The translations under genes were made by a program, and so were the position numbers. From assembly GCA_028875655.1 (NCBI GenBank), contig JAPPCX010000052.1, positions 1-37,926 of the forward strand: DNA of 37,926 nt, given 5' to 3'. Origin of the DNA: Chloroflexota bacterium (GTDB lineage Bacteria; Chloroflexota; Dehalococcoidia; Lucifugimonadales; UBA3495). Below are positions 176 to 14,348 of the stretch, in pieces; the first letter of the stretch is position 1, and every line of letters starts with the position of its first letter. Under the pieces are notes generated by a model, which was not told where the DNA came from, ran no database searches, and was given only the letters and a program-made list of their open reading frames with translations.

Positions 176-1495
176 CTACGGCCTCCGCCACGTCCGCGCC
201 GCCGCCATCAGACCCGCCGCCACCACCGCCACGCCGGCCAGCGCCAGGAACACCTCCCGGTACGTACCTGTGCTGTCGTAAGCGATTCCCGAAACCAACG
301 GCCCCACGGCGAAACCCAGCACCTGCGTCGCCCGTCCAACGCCGTGTATCGCGCCCAGCGACCCTCGCCCATAGTTGGCCGCCCACATCAGCGGCGCCAG
401 CGTGTTGATTCCCGTGCCGATCAATCCCATCAGGATCACCACCGCGTAGGTCTCTGCCAGCGTATCCGTCCCCACCAGCAGCATCAGTGCCGTCGCGCTC
501 ATCAGGTACAGTCCCGCCATGAGCCATCGGGGCGACCATCGGTCTGCCGCAATCCCCGCCAGCATTGCCCCTGCCGCGCCCGCCGTTGCCATTACACTGA
601 TGGCTCCCACCGCAGCCGCCACGTTCAAGCCCCGTGCCGTCAGGTACGGCACCAGGTGCAGCCCGGGGCCGGATACCGCGTTGCTGCCCAGGAACAGCGA
701 CGCCAGCGCGATCCAGAACGCCGGCGTCCGCGCCGCATCTCGCAGCGTCAGCGACCGCTCTGCCACCGCGACTTCCGCACCCGGAGTCTCCCCGTCGGCT
801 ACGACTCGCTCATGCTCGGTTACGGCCCGTTCATGTTCGCTATCAGTCCGCTCATGGTGAGCCTGTCGAACCACGAGCGGACTGTCGCCGTCCACGGCCA
901 GCCCCATGTCCTCCGGCTGCCGCCGCACCCACAGCGCGCATGGAATCACGCCCAGCGCGAACATCAACGCCGCCAGCATCAGCCACGCCGAACGCCAGCC
1001 CCACTGCCCGATCACCAGTTGCGTCAGCGGGGCCAGCACGATGACACCCACCGTTTCCACCAGGAAGACCAGGCCGGTGGCCCGTCCCCGGTAACGCTCG
1101 AACCACTTGCCGGCCGCCACCGAAGCGCCAATTTTGACTCCGCCCTGGTCGGCAATCCGCGACACTGTGAACGCCAGGTAGAACCCCACCAGCGTCTGCA
1201 TCAACGACAGGTACACGCAGCCCAGCCCGATGATGCTCCCGCCGACCACCAGCGTCAACCGCGACCCGAACCGGTCCACCAACCGCCCGATAAATGGCGC
1301 CAGCGCCGCGCCCAATATCGCTCCCAGCGTCGTCGCGCCGGCAATCTCCGTGCGGCCCCAGCCGAACTCATCGGACATGGGCACCACAAAGATGGTCAGT
1401 ATGGATATGGCCGACGCCGCGTTGGCAAACCCGATGCTCCCCGACGCGCCGGCAACCACCCACCCGTAGTACAGTGATCTCGGCCAGAGTCTCAT
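176..1495 (-). CDS. MFS transporter
   Basis: Major facilitator superfamily permease of 439 aa in the inner membrane, substrate unknown. The N-terminus (RSLYYGWVVAGASG) and the loop 2-3 motif GRLVDRFGSR are typical of the oxalate/monocarboxylate-like MFS_1 group. About 12 hydrophobic segments are visible, in two halves. The central cytoplasmic loop carries an unusual charged stretch rich in His, Glu and Arg, built from a dispersed repeat and three 7-residue tandem units (see 794-880). After it, DAARTPAFW begins the second half. I chose the ATG at 1495 because it precedes the conserved start. A GTG at 1525 is possible and neither has a strong ribosome binding site. It lies 65 bp downstream of the cyclophilin gene on the same strand, so the two may be co-transcribed. 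Confidence 0.9.
   Translation of the reverse strand: MRLWPRSLYYGWVVAGASGSIGFANAASAISILTIFVVPMSDEFGWGRTEIAGATTLGAILGAALAPFIGRLVDRFGSRLTLVVGGSIIGLGCVYLSLMQTLVGFYLAFTVSRIADQGGVKIGASVAAGKWFERYRGRATGLVFLVETVGVIVLAPLTQLVIGQWGWRSAWLMLAALMFALGVIPCALWVRRQPEDMGLAVDGDSPLVVRQAHHERTDSEHERAVTEHERVVADGETPGAEVAVAERSLTLRDAARTPAFWIALASLFLGSNAVSGPGLHLVPYLTARGLNVAAAVGAISVMATAGAAGAMLAGIAADRWSPRWLMAGLYLMSATALMLLVGTDTLAETYAVVILMGLIGTGINTLAPLMWAANYGRGSLGAIHGVGRATQVLGFAVGPLVSGIAYDSTGTYREVFLALAGVAVVAAGLMAAARTWRRP
794..880 (-). repeat. In-frame dispersed repeat plus three 21-bp tandem units
   Basis: Inside the MFS gene. Positions 794-814, 815-835 and 836-856 are three degenerate 21-bp units encoding HERTDSE, HERAVTE and HERVVAD (in protein order). 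They abut 857-880, which encodes VVRQAHHER. That peptide is, from memory, a common translation of a short dispersed repeat found in many genomes. All units keep the reading frame and fall in the central cytoplasmic loop. Confidence 0.7.
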
Positions 1496-1560
1496 ACTGC
1501 ACAAAACGCAAAGGGGCAGGCACACAGCCCACCCCTGCAGCGAGTTTCAACCCCCCGAGA

Positions 1561-2097
1561 CTAGCCGATGTCGGTCTCGGTGATCTCGATGTTCTGGATG
1601 GCCAACCGCTCGGTGGGCTGGCTGTTCTCGCCGCCGCGACTCTGGCGCACCGGAGACGTCGCCAATGCCTCCAGCACGTCGTCGCCTTCCGTCAGCATAC
1701 CGAAAATCGTGTAGTTGGGCGGCAGGCCCACGTCGGCCCCGTGCACGATGAACCACTGGCTGCCGTTAGTGTTCGGCCCGGCGTTGGCCATCGCCAGGGT
1801 GCCCCGCGTGTACGAGCGCGTGACCTCCTCGTCGCGGAACCGGTAGCCGGGGCCGCCCGTGCCGTCGCCGCGCGGGCAGCCGCCCTGGATCATGAACCCG
1901 TTGATGACCCGGTGGAACTGGTTGCCCTCGTAAAAGCCGTCACGGGCCAGGAAAACGAAATTGTTGACCGTAAGCGGCGCGACCTCCGACAAAAGCTCGA
2001 TGGTCATGTCGCCTTTGTCGGTTTTGACCACGGCATGGTAACGCTTGGTCGCCTCGATCACGAGGCCGGGCGGGTTTTCGTACTGCTTTGGAGGCAT
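1561..2097 (-). CDS. Peptidyl-prolyl cis-trans isomerase, cyclophilin type
   Basis: Cytoplasmic cyclophilin of 178 aa catalysing cis-trans isomerisation of Xaa-Pro bonds. No signal peptide is visible. The family core is present: the FHRVI-GFMIQGG segment with the catalytic Arg, then TLAMANAGPNTNGSQWFI, then the FGMLTEG segment. The start at 2097 is favoured by an AGGAG about 8 nt upstream and by the absence of family sequence further upstream. It is transcribed divergently from the dehydrogenase at 2289. A TATAAT on the minus strand at 2146-2141 is a likely -10 element. The MFS gene follows on the same strand. Confidence 0.93.
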   Translation of the reverse strand: MPPKQYENPPGLVIEATKRYHAVVKTDKGDMTIELLSEVAPLTVNNFVFLARDGFYEGNQFHRVINGFMIQGGCPRGDGTGGPGYRFRDEEVTRSYTRGTLAMANAGPNTNGSQWFIVHGADVGLPPNYTIFGMLTEGDDVLEALATSPVRQSRGGENSQPTERLAIQNIEITETDIG

Positions 2098-2140
2098 TGA
2101 TTTGTTCTCCTGAAGTTGATAATGCGGATTAACTGCGGGG

Positions 2141-2186
2141 ATTATACCCCAACCTGTCCAGAGCAACCGGTACCATGTTTTATAAT
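2141..2186. promoter_or_regulatory. Divergent promoter pair (-10 elements)
   Basis: Two perfect TATAAT hexamers sit back to back in the divergent intergenic region: minus strand at 2146-2141 for the cyclophilin, plus strand at 2181-2186 for the dehydrogenase. I see no convincing -35 at 16-18 bp for either, so the assignment rests on the -10 boxes and the position. Confidence 0.5.
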
Positions 2187-2288
2187 AGTAGTAGAGGTGA
2201 GCATCTCTAAGTGCGGCAACCCCGCCGGCATCCGCCGGAGCGGGCCGCCCCGATCTCCGACGCACCTCTGGATACAGGAGGCGATACT

Positions 2289-3356
2289 ATGAAAATCCTC
2301 AATAAGATGACCGAATACGGACACGAGCAGGTCGCCATGTACAACGACCCCGAATCGGGCCTGCGCGGCATAATCGCGATTCACGATACCACGCTCGGCC
2401 CCTCCTGCGGCGGCACCCGAATGTGGCCCTACGCCTCCGAAGCCGACGCGCTGGCCGACGCGCTGCGCCTGTCCCAGGCCATGACCTACAAGTCGGCGGC
2501 GGCCGGCCTGAACCTGGGCGGCGGCAAGGGCGTCATCATCGGCGACCCCCGGTTCGATAAGACCGAGGGCCTGCTGCGAGCCTGGGGTCGGTTCGTCGAT
2601 ACCTTGGGTGGCCGCTACCTGACCACGACCGACGTCGGCACCACTGGCCGCGACCTGGAATCCGTCCATCAGGAAACCCGGCACGTGGTCGGCCTGGACA
2701 CAACTCTCGGCGGCAGCGGCGATACGTCCATCATGACCGGCCTGGGCATCTACATGGGTATGCGCGCCTGCGCCGCCCACGCCTGGGGCTCCGACTCGCT
2801 CCGGGGCAAGACCGTCGCCATGCAGGGATTCGGCAAGGTGGCTACCCACACCGCAGAGCATCTGCTGGAAGACGACGCGCGGATTTTCGCCACCGACATC
2901 AGCGAGGCCGCGCTGGACAAGGCCCGGCAGATGGGCGTCCAGGTGGTGTCGCCGGACGAAATCTACGACGTGGAGTGCGACATATTCGCGCCCTGCGCCC
3001 TGGGCGGCGTCATCAACGCCGAAACCATCGACCGCCTGCGTTGCAGCATCGTGGCCGGCGGCGCCAACAACCAGCTGGCAACCCCCGAGGACGGCGAGGA
3101 GCTGCACCGCCGGGGCATTATCTACGCCCCCGACTTTCTGATCAACGCTGGCGGCATCATCAACGCCGCCGCCGAGATCGGCCAGCCGTACAACCCCGAC
3201 CGTTCCCGCCAGCAGACCGAGCGCATCTACGAGCAGATGGCCGCCGTCCTCACCACCTCCAGCAAAAAGGAAATCTCCACGGCGAGGGCAGCCGACCTCC
3301 TCGCGGAAAAGCGACTCGCCTCCGTGCGCGGCATCCGCCACGTCTGGCGCGGCTAA
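2289..3356 (+). CDS. Leucine/valine-type amino acid dehydrogenase (Glu/Leu/Phe/Val family)
   Basis: NAD-dependent branched-chain or aromatic amino acid dehydrogenase of 355 aa, which interconverts L-amino acids and 2-oxo acids plus ammonia. The substrate-binding half shows GGTRMWPY and the catalytic-lysine segment YKSAAAGLNLGGGKGVI. The Rossmann half shows VAMQGFGKVATHTAEHL and ends with VAGGANNQL and a typical INAGGIINAAAE segment. Length and motifs match the leucine/valine dehydrogenase subgroup. Substrate preference cannot be read. The start at 2289 has a perfect AGGAGG (2276-2281) 7 nt upstream. It is a single-gene unit with its own promoter, probably serving amino acid catabolism. Confidence 0.9.
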   Translation: MKILNKMTEYGHEQVAMYNDPESGLRGIIAIHDTTLGPSCGGTRMWPYASEADALADALRLSQAMTYKSAAAGLNLGGGKGVIIGDPRFDKTEGLLRAWGRFVDTLGGRYLTTTDVGTTGRDLESVHQETRHVVGLDTTLGGSGDTSIMTGLGIYMGMRACAAHAWGSDSLRGKTVAMQGFGKVATHTAEHLLEDDARIFATDISEAALDKARQMGVQVVSPDEIYDVECDIFAPCALGGVINAETIDRLRCSIVAGGANNQLATPEDGEELHRRGIIYAPDFLINAGGIINAAAEIGQPYNPDRSRQQTERIYEQMAAVLTTSSKKEISTARAADLLAEKRLASVRGIRHVWRG

Positions 3357-3517: not shown

Positions 3518-3901
3518 CTAACTGCCAATCACCCGAAAGCCTCTGAGTCGGGTTGCCGGGAGCCTGTGAAGCGTCTGGTTGTGCGGATCCACTTCAATGC
3601 CCACCGATTCGAGGGCGGTCACGCCTAACAACGGCTCAGCGTTTTCATCACCGAACACGATAGTTCCCCAGGTGGTTTCTCCCATGAACTCGATTTTCCC
3701 GCCGGCAATGTCCAAGCGGATTTCGCTCCCGTCGGCCTGGCCGTATCTCCGCTGTGCTTCCGGAACCAGGCCAATGGCCTCAAGGTGGGGCCTGGGAACG
3801 AGACAATCGGTAGCTCCGGTGTCAACCAGGAAAAGCCCTTCCCATACTCGTTCAGGATCGGATGGATTCCGTATTGCCACGGTTACGCGTGTTGCGCCCA
3901 T
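3518..3901 (-). CDS. Clan AA (retropepsin-like) aspartic protease family protein
   Basis: A 127-aa single-domain protein with the retroviral-type aspartic protease signature: LVDTGAT at about residues 25-31 (catalytic Asp27) and the LLGVTALESVGIEVDP segment near residues 91-106. No signal peptide or membrane segment is visible. Bacterial members are thought to work as homodimers and their substrates are mostly unknown. The ATG at 3901 is preceded by a GAGG-type site. The gene lies between the complete DUF3179 gene (63 bp upstream) and a duplicated DUF3179 tail. Its final codons and stop appear to be at the join with that tail, so it may have been inserted there. Confidence 0.8.
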   Translation of the reverse strand: MGATRVTVAIRNPSDPERVWEGLFLVDTGATDCLVPRPHLEAIGLVPEAQRRYGQADGSEIRLDIAGGKIEFMGETTWGTIVFGDENAEPLLGVTALESVGIEVDPHNQTLHRLPATRLRGFRVIGS

Positions 3902-3964: not shown

Positions 3965-5326
3965 TCATCTCATGTACACCACCGTATCGGGTCTGTACAC
4001 CGCCCACGAGAACCACAACTGCCCAATGCGCCCCGGCACCGGCGTCAACTGCGTTCCCGCCAACGGGCCGCTCGTGGCGTGCCCGAATATGTTCCACGCG
4101 CTGCCTGTTTGCGTATCAGTGATGATCCCCTCGGCGTCTGCGCCGAACGTCAGCCTCTCTCCGTCTGGCGTTACCGGCGAAAAGACGCCGGCCGTACCCA
4201 CGTCTCTCCCCCGTGACACGGTGCCGGCGTCCAGCGCCGAGGCAGTGCCGGGCGTCCAGAACACCACGATGTCCTCTCCGCCCACGCTGGCCGACACCAC
4301 GCGCTCCTCGGCAAGCGCAGTGAACGACACCGCCCACGCATCGCCGCCCCGCTCAATGGCCACCACGCGCTCCACGGCCGGCAGGCGGGGGTCCTCCTCA
4401 CCCTCGAACAGGAAGGGCGATCTGCCTGGGCGGTCATACCCCGCGTAGGGGTTGCTGCCGTAGGGCCTACCGGAATTCGGACGCGAAAGCACCTTGCCAT
4501 CCGGGAACATGGCCTTGAAATCGCCCCACGATGCTATCGACAGGTAAAGCTGCTCCAGCTTATGCCCCGCGTAGTGTCCGATGACGCCCTCGCCGCCGAA
4601 TTCCTGCCACCAGGATTCGGTCTGCCGGTCGTACATCAGCAGGTTGCTGTCCCGCAGCGCTCCCGTCGTCCCGAAGTCCAGTATCTCGCCCTCAACCGTC
4701 CGCCTGAACACGAAGGCGGTATTGCACAGTGGTCAATACGTTATGACCACCGGCTCGCCGCCAACGGTGTCGTTGACCAGCTCGTGCCACACCATCACTT
4801 GCACCGGGTAGGCCCGTGCGTCGCCGTTCAGGTCCGCTATCTGGACCGCCTCCAGGTCGTCGAGCCACTCGTCGGCGTCCGTCACGGACTCAAACGTGGG
4901 GTTGTCGATGGCCGGAATACCGTCCTTGGGCGGTCCGCCCGTCATTATCTCGTTGAATGAGATGGTGGTGCGCGTGAAGTCGGTGGCCCAGGACGCTCGC
5001 AGCAGACTCTCATACTTGGAACGGGTTCGTGCCGCCTGTTCAGCATCCACCGTCATCACGCCTACCTCCCTGGCTATCGGAATCGACGTAGCCGTTGGCA
5101 GCATGGTAGCGGCTGATTCCACTCGCGCAGTGGCCAACGGCGTCGCAGCATTGCCTAACTCTGCTGTGGGCAGCGCGGTCGCCGGCGCAAGGGTCGGCGC
5201 GACGGCGTCCGTAGGCGCCAAAGGTGCGGCTAACGATCCCGCGCTCGGCGATTCCTGCGTCGGCGCGCAGGCCCATACCACCGGCACCACTAAAAGCAGT
5301 ATAACCAGCACGGCTGTGCGGGGCAT
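3965..5326 (-). CDS. DUF3179 lipoprotein with in-frame TGA at the conserved Cys (candidate selenoprotein)
   Basis: A 453-codon reading frame interrupted only by TGA at 4735-4733. The N-terminus is a lipoprotein signal (hydrophobic residues 4-18, then VVWAC) followed by a Thr/Ala/Pro-rich linker to about residue 85. The rest is DUF3179. Before the TGA comes MVWHELVNDTVGGEPVVITY and after it PLCNTAFVFRR, then DFGTTGALRDSNLLMYDRQT. From family knowledge the interrupted position is Cys in Y-C-P-L-C-N, so reading TGA as selenocysteine gives a U-x-x-C motif at residue 198. The flanks stay in the same frame with no other lesion. A hairpin at 4700-4719 could serve as a SECIS. The alternative is a Cys-to-stop mutation producing a 197-aa fragment. 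A GTG at 5338 with GGAG 8 nt upstream is an equally possible start. It follows the permease gene by 47 bp, so it is probably the last cistron of the ABC importer operon. DUF3179 function is unknown. Confidence 0.8.
4700..4719 (-). promoter_or_regulatory. Candidate bacterial SECIS hairpin
   Basis: In the mRNA sense, a perfect 6-bp stem CCGCCU/AGGCGG closes an 8-nt loop UCGUGUUC. The stem begins 14 nt after the UGA codon and the first loop G is 22 nt after it. Bacterial SECIS elements are short hairpins just downstream of UGA with a G/U in the apical loop, so distance and shape fit. The stem also encodes protein and GC-rich DNA forms such stems by chance, so this is suggestive only. Confidence 0.4.
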
Positions 5327-5373
5327 CGTGCTGGTCACATGTGGCACTCCGACCGTACGTGTCGCCGTCAATC

Positions 5374-6282
5374 CTACCGGCCGCGCAGGCGCGGGTCGAA
5401 TACGTCCCTCAACGCGTCGCCCAGCAGGTTGAATCCCATCACCACCAGGAAAATGGCCAGGCCGGGGGATATGGCCAGCCACGGGCCGGCTTTGACGTGG
5501 GCCGAAGCCGCGCGAACTAACATCCCGCCCCAACTCGGCTGGTCGGGCGGAGTGCCCACGCCCAGGAAAGACAGCGACGATTCAATGATGATGGCGAACC
5601 CCAGGTAGTACGTCGCCAGCACCAGGTAAGTGGCGAAACAGTTGGGCACGATGTGTCGCATGATAATCCGCCAGGGCGGAGCGCCGATTGCCGTCGCAGC
5701 CGTCACGTAGTCCAACTCCCGCAACGACAACACTTGCGAGCGCACCGTTCTGATCACGGGCGCGACCATCCCGATCACGATGGCCAGGATCACGGTGTTC
5801 AGCGACGGCGTGACCACCGCCATAATCGCTAGGGCGATCAGCAGGCCCGGCAACGACATCAGGGCGTCCACGATGCGCTGCGAAACGGTGTCCACTATGC
5901 CGCCGATGTAGGTGAGGGCCACTCCGATGATGAAGCTGCCGGTGATGCCCACAACCACGCTGCCCAAGCCAACGTACAAAGAGATACGCGCGCCGTAGAT
6001 CAGCCGGCTCAATACGTCCCGGCCCACGTAGTCGGCGCCGAGCAGGTAGTTGGCATTGGGCGCCTCCCAGGGCAAAGCGGGCGTGGACCTAGGGTCGTAA
6101 GGCGCCAGCACCGGCGCCAGCGCAGCCACTACTACGAGCAGCACAACAATCAAACCGCCCACCGCGCCCAGTGGCTTCGTGCGAACGAAACGCGTGAATC
6201 CAGTCCATGAACGCGCTGCCAACCCGGGGGCCGGAAGACCCTCGCGGGTTAGAGTTGCCTGTTCGGTGGTTTGATCAATCAT
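5374..6282 (-). CDS. ABC transporter permease, DppC/OppC type
   Basis: Inner-membrane permease of 302 aa in the peptide/nickel importer family. A cytoplasmic N-tail of about 35 residues precedes the first hydrophobic segment, followed by the family block LLGADYVGRDVLSRLIYGAR. The binding-protein-dependent transport domain carries the EAA loop around ATAIGAPPWRIIMRHIVPN, which contacts the ATPase. The end (GDALRDVFDPRLRG) is characteristic. It pairs with the DppB-type permease 51 bp upstream and the substrate-binding protein further up. No ATPase genes occur in this cluster, so the importer must use ATPase subunits encoded elsewhere. Confidence 0.93.
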   Translation of the reverse strand: MIDQTTEQATLTREGLPAPGLAARSWTGFTRFVRTKPLGAVGGLIVVLLVVVAALAPVLAPYDPRSTPALPWEAPNANYLLGADYVGRDVLSRLIYGARISLYVGLGSVVVGITGSFIIGVALTYIGGIVDTVSQRIVDALMSLPGLLIALAIMAVVTPSLNTVILAIVIGMVAPVIRTVRSQVLSLRELDYVTAATAIGAPPWRIIMRHIVPNCFATYLVLATYYLGFAIIIESSLSFLGVGTPPDQPSWGGMLVRAASAHVKAGPWLAISPGLAIFLVVMGFNLLGDALRDVFDPRLRGR

Positions 6283-6333: not shown

Positions 6334-7293
6334 CTACGAGTAGCGGATCCGCGGGTCCAGGATGCCGTAGAGCATATCGATGAGCAGGTTGAGCAACAGG
6401 ACTACCGCCGCGGTCATCAGGATAACGCCCTGGATCACCGGGAAGTCCCGGTGGTTGATGGCGTCGATCAAGAAGTTGCCCACGCCGGGGACGACGAAGA
6501 TCTGCTCAACGATAATCACGCCGCCCAGCAAACGCCCGAACTGGTAGCCGGACACCGTGACCACCGGAAGCAGGGCGTTTTTCAGCGCGTGGCGACCCAC
6601 CACGACCCACTCGCGCAATCCCTTGGAACGCGCCGTCCTCATGTAGTCTTCGCGCATCACTTCCAGCATCGCCGATCTCGTGACGCGGGCGGTGAACGCC
6701 ATGTCATGGAAGCCGATCACTGCCGCCGGCAGCACCATCAACTTCAGGTTCTGTATCGGGTCTTCCCATAAATGGGCGTATTCCAGCGGCGGCAGCCAGC
6801 CCGTCCCATACACCAGCGCGTAAATGACCAGCACCCCGATCCAGAAGGTCGGCATGGCGATGCCCAACAGCGCGATGACTCGGCTGGCGTAGTCCATGCC
6901 GGAGTCTTGCTTCATCGCCGACAGGATACCTAGTGGCACGGCGGTGACGAAGGCCATCACGATAGCCAGCACCGCCAGCTCGAAGGTTCTGGCGAAGCGC
7001 TCCACCAACTCCAGGCCGAACGGCTGGCCATAATAAAGGGATATGCCCAGGTCGCCGCGGACGACGCCCCACAGCCAGTCGGCGTATTGCACGTAGATTG
7101 GACGGTTGAGGCCCAGGTCCTCGCGCAAACGCTCGAAGTCCTCGGTGGTGACCGTCCCGCTGGCGTCCTCGCCGGTGAGCAGGAAAACGGCAGCGTCCCC
7201 CGGCACTATGGAGAACAGCCCGAACACCAGGATGGTGGCCAGCAGCATAGTGGGAATGAAGAGGAGAAATCTTCGAATCAGGTACTGAGACAT
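6334..7293 (-). CDS. ABC transporter permease, DppB/OppB type
   Basis: Inner-membrane permease of 319 aa, partner of the DppC-type protein. It opens with MSQYLIRRFLLFIPTMLL and a first membrane span, then the periplasmic IVPGDAA segment. It has about six membrane spans and an EAA loop in the segment MRTARSKGLREWVVVGRHAL. It ends with LLIDMLYGILDPRIR, the usual DppB terminus. It lies 120 bp downstream of the substrate-binding protein gene, with a hairpin between them that may lower permease expression relative to the binding protein. Confidence 0.93.
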   Translation of the reverse strand: MSQYLIRRFLLFIPTMLLATILVFGLFSIVPGDAAVFLLTGEDASGTVTTEDFERLREDLGLNRPIYVQYADWLWGVVRGDLGISLYYGQPFGLELVERFARTFELAVLAIVMAFVTAVPLGILSAMKQDSGMDYASRVIALLGIAMPTFWIGVLVIYALVYGTGWLPPLEYAHLWEDPIQNLKLMVLPAAVIGFHDMAFTARVTRSAMLEVMREDYMRTARSKGLREWVVVGRHALKNALLPVVTVSGYQFGRLLGGVIIVEQIFVVPGVGNFLIDAINHRDFPVIQGVILMTAAVVLLLNLLIDMLYGILDPRIRYS

Positions 7294-7413: not shown

Positions 7414-9351
7414 CTACGGCCGGTAACCCCGGTCGGCGTTGGCGCCGTGGTCGCAAGCGGAGGCTTCACCGCCAGCCCACCAGACGTGGTCCCACTTCTT
7501 GACGAGCTGAACCGTGGGCGGGTAGTGGTAATTCTTGATACGGCAGTCAAACGCCCCGCCGCTGGAGTACCACAGTACCGGCAGCCAGTGGCTTTCGCCC
7601 TGGTGCAGGATTTCCGCCAACGCTTCCAGGTGCCCCTGCCTTACCGCCGGGTCAACTTCCTCGTTTTGCAACTTAATCAGCTCGTCAACGTCGTCGTTCT
7701 GCCAGTTGTGCGGGTTGCGCAGCACGTCTTGCAGGTAGAACTGGTTGATGATGTCGCCGGGGTCGCGCAAGATAACGCCCGTTCCAACACCGTCAAAGTT
7801 GGCCACGCCGTCCCGCAACCCGACGTACATCGTGGCCAGGTCGGTAGGCTGAATGACGATGTTGATGTTGAGGTCTTCCCGCAGCTGTGGCGCCACCGTC
7901 TCCGCTGTGGACAGGGAGGGGTTGGAGTTCACCACGTTGTGGGTAATCTCAAATCCGTCGGGATAGCCGGCCTCGGTGAGCAACTGCCTGGCCTCGGCCA
8001 ATGCGGCATCGCGGTCGCCGAAGGCCGGGTTGTTGGCGCGCAGGTCTTCCAGGTCTTCCACGACGCCGGGAGCGAAGAAGGTGCCGGGCTGGCCAAAGCC
8101 CAGGATGGCCTTCTCAACCGCGTTGTCCCGGTCAATGCCCAGGTACATCGCACGACGCACCCGCGGGTCGTCAAACGGGGGCTTCTGGTGGTTCAGGAAG
8201 AAAGCCTGTACGCCGGAAGCTTCCAGGATGACGGCGCGGACGCGGCCGTTGGTGTCCTCTTCCAGGCGGGCCATGTCTTCTGGGCGGTTGCTGCCGGTCA
8301 CCGGCTGGTAGGAACCGTAAACCTGTCCGGCCTGCAACGCCGACAGGCGCCGCGCGGTGTCCCGAATCAGGAATATCTTCAGGCCGTCAAAGAAGGGCCG
8401 ACCTTCCTTGAAGTAGTTGGGGTTGCGGTCGTAGGAATAACCGGAGTCCTTCTCCCATTCGCGCAGCATCCAGGGGCCGGAACCGATCAGGCTGTCGGGC
8501 GTGCCCGCGTTGATGGCGGCCAGAGCCTCGACCTGGGTCTTGCCGGTGTTGGCCTGCTCCTGGGTCAGGTTCTCGCCCACGTGCTTAGGATAAACCTTCA
8601 TGTAATCGGAGGCCAAGTTGGGCAGGAAGCCAGCAGCCGGGAACCGCAGCGGAATCTTCACCGTCTTGGCGTCGATGACCTCGGCGGTCCCATGCACCAC
8701 AAAGTTGTTGAGGAAGCCGGTGCGGGCGCGCAGCACGCCTTCTTCGACCTGTCCCAGGGTGATGCGGTCAATGGAGAATGCTACGTCCTCGGCTTCAACC
8801 GGGTGGCCGTCGGAGAAGGTGGCGTCCGGATGCAGGTTGAAGACGTAACCCACCTCGCTGCCGTCGTCGTAGAACTCCCAACTCACCGCCAGGTCGCCGA
8901 TGATCTCGTTGGGGTTGACCGGGTTGTATTCCAGGATCTGGTTGAACCGCGGACCCGAGGGAATCAGCACGGTGTTCATGGAACCGCCGTAGTGAACGTC
9001 CCAGAAGCCCGGGTTGCTGGTGGCCACCAGCGGGAAGTCTCCCCGATAGTGTTGGGCTTCGCCTTCCTGCCACCAGTCCGGTCGCTGGTCAATCGCCACG
9101 ACGGCGGTGGGCACCGGCACTGCCGTCGGGGCCACGTTCAGCGGAGCGGTCGGTGTCGGCTCCACTGCGCCCGCGAAGGGGTTCAGTGTCGGAGTCGCCG
9201 CAGCCTGCTGCGGAGCGGTCCCGCCGGTGGAGGCGTCGCCGGTGGTTGCCGGCGTAGTGGCTGTGCCACCGCAGGCGACAATCACCACGGTGAGCGCCAG
9301 CGCGCCGAGCGCGAGCAAGGTTCGTGGATGCCAAAGTCTTCGCAAATCCAT
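7414..9351 (-). CDS. ABC transporter substrate-binding lipoprotein, SBP family 5
   Basis: Extracytoplasmic solute-binding protein of 645 aa for a peptide/nickel/opine-type importer. A lipoprotein signal runs to about residue 27 (hydrophobic core, then VIVAC). A Thr/Ala/Pro-rich linker to about residue 90 follows, then the family 5 fold with segments such as FNLHPDATFSDGHPVEAEDV and GSGPWMLREWEKDSGYSYDR. Ligand cannot be predicted. It is the first gene of the run, with a good promoter 98-126 bp upstream, and is followed by both permeases and the DUF3179 lipoprotein. The Thr-rich linker resembles that of the DUF3179 protein, suggesting that both are exposed at the cell surface. Confidence 0.93.
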   Translation of the reverse strand: MDLRRLWHPRTLLALGALALTVVIVACGGTATTPATTGDASTGGTAPQQAAATPTLNPFAGAVEPTPTAPLNVAPTAVPVPTAVVAIDQRPDWWQEGEAQHYRGDFPLVATSNPGFWDVHYGGSMNTVLIPSGPRFNQILEYNPVNPNEIIGDLAVSWEFYDDGSEVGYVFNLHPDATFSDGHPVEAEDVAFSIDRITLGQVEEGVLRARTGFLNNFVVHGTAEVIDAKTVKIPLRFPAAGFLPNLASDYMKVYPKHVGENLTQEQANTGKTQVEALAAINAGTPDSLIGSGPWMLREWEKDSGYSYDRNPNYFKEGRPFFDGLKIFLIRDTARRLSALQAGQVYGSYQPVTGSNRPEDMARLEEDTNGRVRAVILEASGVQAFFLNHQKPPFDDPRVRRAMYLGIDRDNAVEKAILGFGQPGTFFAPGVVEDLEDLRANNPAFGDRDAALAEARQLLTEAGYPDGFEITHNVVNSNPSLSTAETVAPQLREDLNINIVIQPTDLATMYVGLRDGVANFDGVGTGVILRDPGDIINQFYLQDVLRNPHNWQNDDVDELIKLQNEEVDPAVRQGHLEALAEILHQGESHWLPVLWYSSGGAFDCRIKNYHYPPTVQLVKKWDHVWWAGGEASACDHGANADRGYRP

Positions 9352-11757: not shown

Positions 11758-12072
11758 CTACGGCCGCCCCATCGAATACCGATTCAGTATCCCCAGGTAA
11801 GCCCGCTGACCCTCCACGGCGATGGCCGTGCGGTCGGCCTGGTACTCCGCCCATACCGATTGCGTCAGCGCCGTAGCCTTGGCGGAAGGCTTGTATGGGT
11901 TGGCCGGGTCCAGCCCCGCGTACGCCTGCATCCGCGCGCCGATGGACTTCAGGCTGCGCTCCAGCGCGGCGGCCAGCGCCGCCACCTCGCGGCTGTCATG
12001 CGCCACCTTGCCGCGATACAAGTGCAGCACCGCCAGGTCTTCAATCCGTTCCCATTTGCGTGCTACTGGCAT
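11758..12072 (-). CDS. Hypothetical protein, 104 aa, third gene of AlbA_2-ParA operon
   Basis: A soluble, helical protein (MPVARKWERIEDL...) with no motif I recognise. The start at 12072 has GGAG 6 nt upstream and overlaps the end of the ParA gene by 32 bp, which indicates translational coupling. In such operons the small third protein may be a partner or regulator of the ATPase. That is inference from position only. Confidence 0.7.
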   Translation of the reverse strand: MPVARKWERIEDLAVLHLYRGKVAHDSREVAALAAALERSLKSIGARMQAYAGLDPANPYKPSAKATALTQSVWAEYQADRTAIAVEGQRAYLGILNRYSMGRP

Positions 12073-13117
12073 GATATTCTCCGGCTGCGGGGACGAGATT
12101 GATTCGGGCGATAATTTTCTCGGCCAGTGTTCGAAAGTCGGCCCGGGCATCCACAACCGCAGCAGCGTGGCTGCCGAAAGCACCGTCGGCCGTAGTTAAC
12201 TTGAAAATCGGCTTGCGACGCTCTTGTGCCATCGGCACCAAGCTGCGGTAGTGCTTCATCGTAGCCAGTGCATTTTCCGTATCTTCCTGCGGAGTAGCGG
12301 CATACGGGCCATCGGCATTCTCCAACAAGTTGCTGGCATATTCCCTTGGCATACGGTTCACCCACTTATCATAGGCTCTTACGGGGCGACTGAGTCTAAC
12401 GCTGTGCTGTTGAACCACGTAGCCGATGGGCTGCATACCTCCTGCTGGCAGAGCAAAATCTGGTTCACTCCAGTTGTCACGCCGCCTTTGCCAGTCTTGT
12501 CGCCATCGCTGCAAGGTAGGGCCCAAGTTACGCAATCCTTGTAGCGAAAACAAATCTGCCCCCAGCGGCACTACCACGTAGTCGGTTGCGATGAGAGCGG
12601 AACGGTTGATAGCACCCAAGTTGGGGCCAATGTCAGCAAGTATTATTGCAGCATCGGCCTGGACAGCAGCGTATTGCATTATGGTCGAAAACGCCGTTAA
12701 TATCCGAAACGGCCGGTACAAATTGGTAGAGTCCAGCGCGTTAGGCCATTCCGCTGCTAGGGTGTCCTCAAACCCGGCCAGAGACAGATCGCCCGGTATT
12801 AGGCTGATATTGCCGTGAATCATCAACTGGCGGTTAACTTGCTGGAGTAACGGATACCTCAAATCCCCCACCTGCATTAGTGGCTTGACACATTCGAATA
12901 TGGTGGCGTCGGGCGTTGTAGCGTTGGCCCCTTCATCCCAAAGCGACTCCAGTCGCTCCTCATCCAGAAAGGCGGCCGTCAGGTTGGCTTGCGGGTCTAG
13001 GTCGCAAGCCAGCACATTGTAGCCCAGATCCGACAGCATCCAGCCCAGATGATAAACCAGCGAGGTTTTACCCACCCCGCCTTTGTTGTTAAAGAAAGTC
13101 AGCACCGGAACGGGCAT
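12041..13117 (-). CDS. ParA/MinD-family ATPase
   Basis: A 358-aa P-loop ATPase of the ParA (Soj) type. The deviant Walker A is NNKGGVGKTSLVYHLG near residues 10-25, the switch/Walker A' region is ACDLDPQANLTAAF, and the Walker B-like segment is ILADIGPNLGAINRSAL near 158-174. The C-terminal half is longer than in chromosomal ParA and has a basic, Arg/Gln/Trp-rich stretch. No ParB or centromere-like repeats lie nearby, so a partition role is not supported. It starts 7 bp after the AlbA_2 gene and overlaps the 104-aa gene, forming a three-gene operon. Confidence 0.88.
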   Translation of the reverse strand: MPVPVLTFFNNKGGVGKTSLVYHLGWMLSDLGYNVLACDLDPQANLTAAFLDEERLESLWDEGANATTPDATIFECVKPLMQVGDLRYPLLQQVNRQLMIHGNISLIPGDLSLAGFEDTLAAEWPNALDSTNLYRPFRILTAFSTIMQYAAVQADAAIILADIGPNLGAINRSALIATDYVVVPLGADLFSLQGLRNLGPTLQRWRQDWQRRRDNWSEPDFALPAGGMQPIGYVVQQHSVRLSRPVRAYDKWVNRMPREYASNLLENADGPYAATPQEDTENALATMKHYRSLVPMAQERRKPIFKLTTADGAFGSHAAAVVDARADFRTLAEKIIARINLVPAAGEYHASSTQMGTD

Positions 13118-13124
13118 GAGACAG

Positions 13125-14342
13125 TCACTCCTGCGCCACTTTGATTATCACCGACACATAATTGGCTTGAACCGTGAATTCCGGTTCGGGGTGTCCCGCG
13201 TCTCGCAACTGCCGCTTGGCTATTGGGATGCCAGCTCCGAAACGCTGTACGAAGCCAACGGTTCTCATCGCGTCCGCCAAATTGGGGTTGCGATAGTCTG
13301 TCAGCCCCGGTTGCCCAAAGTTATCGGTGTTTACAGTTCCATAAGGCCCACCTGGGCTGATAACCTCAATGCGATCATTAAACCAGTTCACCCGAATCGG
13401 GGCGTTGGTGGCCTCGTAAGTACGGTGCATAACCGCGTTGCGGGTAATTTGTTGCAATGCCCCCAACGGGTAAAGTTCAGTTCGTAGTTCCGTTGGCGAG
13501 GAAGTAATATCAACCCCGATTCTATTGTGCGCTTGCAATTTGTCGCCCAGTCGGCGTAACACGTCAGAAACATCGCCGCCGATTGTTTCACTGTCAATAA
13601 TATTATCTGACAATTCTAGCCCATCAATGCGTAGAAACTGCAAGTATGCTCCGGGCAGGAAATCTTGTGGACTTTTTCCAATAACCAGTAGGCCCATTAC
13701 CGTTGCTATCGGACTATCTGCTGCCGCAATCATCTTTGTCGCTGCCAGCCGTTCCTCAATCGTGCGGTCATTGGCAGTCAACACATCGTCTGAAAAGGCT
13801 CGCGGAAGATACTCGTTCTCAAATTGCACCAGGTTCAAATCCCGCAATCCCGCCGTCGGAACAGGCTGTAAGTCGAAAGGCCGGTCGCCGAAGCGCCGTC
13901 GCTCGTTGAGGATCCGTTCGTCCTGCGCTGTGGCAATCCCACGACGTGGGCCAATGCGTATTTGAATTCGACCGCGATAGCGAACTGGTGGTGAATCAGA
14001 GGGCAGAACCGTAACAACAGCCACATCTCGATCTCGCAATGTCTTCTTCTCAACCTGAATGGACGGCAAAGGCAGAATGTTGCCGTCAGTTTTCATGTCC
14101 GCCAAGTTTCGGAGCATTTCGTCCGAAACCTCAGTCCCGACGATACAGCGGTCCGGGTCACGTACTCCAATGACTACCAAACCTGGAACACGGTGATCAG
14201 GCAGGTCGTTGGCGAAGGCGCAGATTGCTTCGCGGATTTCGTTAGCCCCACTGCGGGATAATGTCTCCTTGAACTCGACACGGTCAGCTTCCCCGTAGTC
14301 GATCAAATGCAACAGGTCTGAGTCGGCTAAGGAAACCATCAT
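13125..14342 (-). CDS. AlbA_2 (Schlafen-like) DNA-binding domain plus GHKL-type ATPase
   Basis: A protein of about 405 aa. The N-terminal 130 residues match the Schlafen AlbA_2 domain: VEFKETLSRSGANEIREAICAFAN and GLVVIGVRD. The C-terminal third matches the HATPase_c_4 group with the N-box-like QITRNAVMHRTYE and later RFGAGIPIAKRQL. Related proteins are usually annotated as ATP-binding or RecG-related regulators, and AlbA_2 proteins recur in defence islands. A GTG at 14348 and ATGs at 14342 and 14339 are all possible starts. None has a well-spaced ribosome site, and a large palindrome abuts the start. AT content is visibly higher than in neighbouring metabolic genes. It is the first gene of the operon with ParA and the 104-aa protein. 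Confidence 0.85.
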   Translation of the reverse strand: MMVSLADSDLLHLIDYGEADRVEFKETLSRSGANEIREAICAFANDLPDHRVPGLVVIGVRDPDRCIVGTEVSDEMLRNLADMKTDGNILPLPSIQVEKKTLRDRDVAVVTVLPSDSPPVRYRGRIQIRIGPRRGIATAQDERILNERRRFGDRPFDLQPVPTAGLRDLNLVQFENEYLPRAFSDDVLTANDRTIEERLAATKMIAAADSPIATVMGLLVIGKSPQDFLPGAYLQFLRIDGLELSDNIIDSETIGGDVSDVLRRLGDKLQAHNRIGVDITSSPTELRTELYPLGALQQITRNAVMHRTYEATNAPIRVNWFNDRIEVISPGGPYGTVNTDNFGQPGLTDYRNPNLADAMRTVGFVQRFGAGIPIAKRQLRDAGHPEPEFTVQANYVSVIIKVAQE

Positions 14343-14348
14343 CCTCAC

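Follow-up and report, generated by a model that had tools for sequence, protein, structure and literature searches.

Selenocysteine very probably encoded by an in-frame UGA in a DUF3179 lipoprotein gene of Dehalococcoidia

Here, we report a DUF3179 lipoprotein gene in which UGA codon 198 very probably encodes selenocysteine (Sec), a conclusion to which the comparison of related sequences leads with little room for doubt. The gene lies on the minus strand of the window, by which we mean the whole stretch of 37,926 nt that was analysed and to which all coordinates refer unless another locus is named. SelA, SelB, SelC and SelD of the host would decode this UGA as Sec, directed by a hairpin that begins 16 nt after the start of the codon. 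The features of the gene are as follows.

3965..5326 (-): DUF3179 lipoprotein gene, putative selenoprotein; 453 codons, residue 198 being Sec; GTG at 5338 as an alternative start
4733..4735 (-): in-frame UGA, very probably read as selenocysteine, the U of YUPLC; same codon TGA in relatives
4724..4726 (-): codon 201, for the putative resolving Cys at the end of UxxC, a position occupied by Cys in 43 of 44 homologues
3983..4927 (-): DUF3179 domain, predicted as a tandem duplication of one Rieske-like fold, with Sec in the first copy only (profile match and predicted model)
5267..5326 (-): putative signal peptide of a lipoprotein, ending in the lipobox-like VWA-C20 (from sequence)
4700..4719 (-): candidate SECIS hairpin, CCGCCU-UCGUGUUC-AGGCGG, spanning 16-35 nt downstream of the first UGA base (from comparison with relatives)

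The reading frame and selection past the UGA

Direct reading of positions 3965-5326 (-) gives a frame of 453 codons plus a terminal TGA (3967-3965), and the frame is otherwise intact apart from one internal TGA (4735-4733), just as the preliminary description of this DNA had it. The same description placed DUF3179 on both sides of this TGA without a change of frame, which agrees with a profile search where PF11376 (DUF3179) covers the raw DNA from end to end (E 8.4e-96, flagged '1 TGA'). With U read as Cys, the protein matches positions 1-292 of the 292 in this profile (E 1.9e-97; 326.6 bits, cut-off 27). Residue 198 is found in the context VITY-U-PLCNTAFVF, and the alignment of YUPLC to the YCPLC of homologues confirms that the TGA takes the place of the first Cys in the motif Y-C-P-L-C-N. 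Only three positions in the first half have a conserved Cys or His, namely His181, residue 198 (Cys or Sec) and Cys201. At the other end of the gene, a GTG start at 5338 with GGAG upstream is, from the sequence, no less plausible than the ATG at 5326, and a hydrophobic stretch leading to VVWAC (residues 16-20) was recognized by eye as a putative lipobox.

The estimated dN/dS downstream of the UGA is 0.05-0.17 and similar to that upstream, by which measure purifying selection is going on beyond the codon. Recoding of UGA competes with termination, and this general background is what favours programmed termination, in which the UGA would usually stop translation to leave a short lipoprotein that contains only a portion of the first domain while readthrough is rare or regulated by selenium. 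We hold this to be very improbable, as the cut would fall within the first predicted domain and selection is equally strong before and after the UGA.

Same-site TGA, the hairpin and the decoding machinery

The host genome (3.45 Mb, 97% complete) is a draft assembly of 123 contigs and a single base change is enough to turn TGC or TGT into TGA, so that a pseudogene, point mutation or assembly error in one copy had to be considered; a point mutation of this kind was also the null hypothesis of the preliminary description. The hypothesis was not borne out. The same TGA is found in 14 other assemblies and a TGA paralogue resides within the same genome, purifying selection persists and the codons of the hairpin are frozen, and the probability that remains for an error in one copy is in our view negligible. 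The 14 assemblies are among the 16 closest relatives retrieved in a scan of named genomes, all of them MAGs of Dehalococcoidia/Chloroflexota and one labelled SAR202; the remaining two have TGC (L107) and SPIS (L108) at the site. The latter gene (L108:3001-4023), from deep Lake Baikal, is sister to the Sec clade of the window and has SPIS for UPLC, both putative redox residues being replaced by Ser.

The search of homologues for the same in-frame TGA that had been recommended gave, among the sequences read, 40 others with TGA at the Sec site of the window gene. Among the matches listed, all class homologues retrieved for one in-frame TGA carry this codon where the motif has its first Cys, and the position of the TGA is therefore far from chance. 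The only TAG-bearing class homologue retrieved had its stop elsewhere than at the motif Cys. A phylum-wide draw showed, among the matches listed, no in-frame TGA besides that of the window gene, and TAG in two matches. DUF3179 was present in 113 of the 294 genomes of the class surveyed, and the host genome has three matches: the window gene, the TGA paralogue (YUTLC, C98) and a WCPRC copy (C106). The paralogue (L002, G000:C98:27921-28844) belongs to a Sec clade other than that of the window gene. Adjacent DUF3179 genes occur in several other genomes, and one frame (L062, G005:C117) harbours two DUF3179 regions, the second of which contains an in-frame TAG.

The presence of a SECIS-type hairpin 3' of the UGA in the Sec genes is strongly supported by sequence comparison. 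A stem of 6-7 pairs that begins 16 nt downstream of the first UGA base was found in 37 of 41 Sec genes versus 2 of 43 Cys genes, by a register rule that was set after the folded structures had been inspected, and the other four Sec genes had stems of at least 6 pairs in nearby registers. Less dependent on this rule are the comparison of folding energy at +9..+45, with -12.0 kcal/mol for Sec versus -8.0 kcal/mol for Cys genes (p about 1e-8), and the covariation counts. Sec genes outside the clade of the window, including the paralogue in its own genome, displayed compensatory double changes at 6 of 7 stem pairs, and in relatives of the other Sec clades covariation was 0.502 as against 0.168 when shuffled (0/500). 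In the window's own clade the stem is invariant, and six conserved degenerate codons in the stem-loop, two of them for Arg, are each represented by one codon in 15/15 genes. This unvarying stem is informative because the degenerate codons are frozen there, synonymous-site invariance being 6/6 for the stem-loop codons versus 6/89 for such codons elsewhere. The register of the window hairpin is one base longer than in most other Sec genes. Folded by itself the window hairpin is no more stable than its shuffles (z -0.28), and the case for a SECIS thus rests on comparison.

All four genes that the preliminary description had suggested looking for, selA, selB, selD and selC, are present in the host genome. 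The first three scored 553, 361 and 378 bits, respectively, each above its curated cut-off, and the tRNA-Sec (selC), with anticodon UCA (TCA in DNA), was found by two programs. A second tRNA-Sec match (L005) has the anticodon GUA and is not selC. The selD of the host is a selenoprotein gene too, with TGA at GUAAKLS (L024, G000:C89, frame 1165-2448 (-)). Across the class, selA was found in 24 of 25 genomes with a TGA-bearing DUF3179 gene versus 64 of 88 other DUF3179 genomes (p 0.008), where the former count is a lower bound (at least 25) and a few of the 88 may therefore be misfiled; the one TGA genome without selA, G011, is 69% complete. Although in-frame TGA in several genes would also fit a reassignment of TGA to an ordinary amino acid in the organism or class, we give this practically no credence, as TGA is the terminator of the window gene itself and of 12 of 33 Sec genes, stands in-frame only at a Cys site in a genome with complete Sec machinery, and is outside SECIS contexts largely only a stop.

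Predicted fold and possible role

The AlphaFold2 model of the window protein has a pLDDT of 95, and homology links the two halves of the DUF3179 domain (E 6.7e-28). For the first half of the predicted model all 50 VIA-align rows listed were Rieske proteins, the top one reaching Z 9.2 with 94 of 104 residues aligned at an rmsd of 3.0, and the list for the whole model named Rieske proteins for both halves with Z up to 6.8. Prediction thus supports two duplicated Rieske-like beta domains without [2Fe-2S] ligands. Each half is predicted to be alike in fold to Rieske ferredoxins and domains (3gce, 5cxm, 1fqt), which differ from DUF3179 in having CxH...CxxH cluster ligands; these were found in 0 of 44 DUF3179 sequences versus 8 of 8 Rieske proteins from the same genome used as control. 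As profile comparison by hhalign with the host's own Rieske proteins gave a probability of 1.5% and no likeness at the sequence level, homology to Rieske proteins is not claimed. A Foldseek search of the predicted model returned no E-value below 0.001, sequence searches of the PDB no match and NCBIfam no model for the window protein. A likeness of CPLC/CPLH to loop 2 of Rieske proteins was dropped, the aligned ranges and strand order rather suggesting that UxxC lies in a turn that precedes the cluster region.

The protein is probably an exported selenenylsulfide redox lipoprotein located in the envelope. Sec198 and Cys201 would most likely act together as a selenenylsulfide/selenol-thiol redox pair in the first Rieske-like domain, with the conserved His181, Glu182, Asn185 and Asp186 near Sec198 in sequence. 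As a rival for the role only, and not for Sec coding, Sec and Cys could instead be ligands of a metal such as copper or zinc together with His181, Glu182 and Asp186. The conserved His-Glu and Asp that stand before CxxC/UxxC in 43-44 of 44 homologues would suit such ligands. Sec that takes the place of Cys typically marks a redox site (PMC9312934), no Pfam metal family matched above noise, and metal binding is to us the distinctly less likely role, at a chance that is not small. The substrate of the putative redox lipoprotein may perhaps be linked to a neighbouring peptide-type ABC importer, identified in the analysis of the neighbourhood.

5374..6282 (-): OppC/DppC-type ABC permease, upstream of the window gene; neighbour kept in 12 of the 13 Sec orthologues that allow the test
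6334..7293 (-): OppB/DppB-type ABC permease
7414..9351 (-): solute-binding protein (family 5) belonging to the same ABC importer

In 12 of the 13 Sec relatives where the region is visible, the OppB-OppC type importer lies upstream of the DUF3179 gene and on its strand, and with a gap that ranges from about 50 bases to more than 1 kb the claim is limited to a conserved neighbourhood. Directly downstream of the DUF3179 gene is a small gene for a retropepsin-like aspartyl protease (3518-3901 (-); weak Pfam match), present also in L096. Elsewhere in the window (12041-14348 (-)) a ParA/MinD-like ATPase adjoins a Schlafen AlbA_2 / HATPase_c_4 protein.

Origin of Sec and relation to the known family

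In a quick tree of the Dehalococcoidia DUF3179 proteins, made with the Sec column masked and the root not inferred, the Sec rows fell into three separate clades and strongly supported branches forced at least three changes, related MAGs being non-independent events. The clade of the window is nested among Cys proteins, and the sequences nearest to it in the rest of the phylum likewise have Cys, which makes Cys to Sec the simplest change; the sequences thus indicate that Sec in this lineage most likely arose from Cys-x-x-Cys DUF3179 ancestors. The Cys-type proteins (YCPLC), the nearest with about 50% identity to the window protein, share the conserved His-Glu, Asn-Asp and Cys but have Cys in the place of Sec and no SECIS hairpin. 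A wider proposal, to which we assign somewhat less than an even chance, is that DUF3179 is a duplicated cluster-less Rieske-like fold with a new CxxC/UxxC site in a turn between two strands away from the cluster loops, and that Chloroflexota adopted Sec on separate occasions, with SECIS registers that differ.

In the reviews PMC9312934 and PMC13188914, DUF3179 (pfam11376, UxxC/T) is already tabulated as a prokaryotic selenoprotein family and credited to Zhang & Gladyshev 2007, from a deltaproteobacterial symbiont of Olavius algarvensis. The window gene is therefore a new example and not a new kind, and of the 'candidate new selenoprotein' in the preliminary description the Sec at the TGA codon is strongly supported, by relatives, SECIS and machinery, while the novelty is not upheld. 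The symbiont family shares the Pfam family over its full length and the same UxxC position class, whereas the window gene derives from Dehalococcoidia/SAR202-type Chloroflexota, and the SECIS, the separate Sec clades and the predicted fold come from the present analysis. Within an incomplete coverage of the literature naming DUF3179, none was found that joins it to Chloroflexota or to the Rieske fold, nor was an earlier description met with of three separate Sec clades in Dehalococcoidia or of a duplicated Rieske-like model without ligands and with Sec in a predicted new site.

Automatic annotation would split the window gene in two at the UGA. Read through, it adds Dehalococcoidia/SAR202-type Chloroflexota to the range of a selenoprotein family that has been little studied, with Sec and Cys forms in several clades there and the SECIS made visible by covariation, and it leads to a hypothesis on the fold of this family of unknown function. 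If true, the duplicated and cluster-less Rieske-like DUF3179 would be a new scaffold for a selenol redox enzyme.
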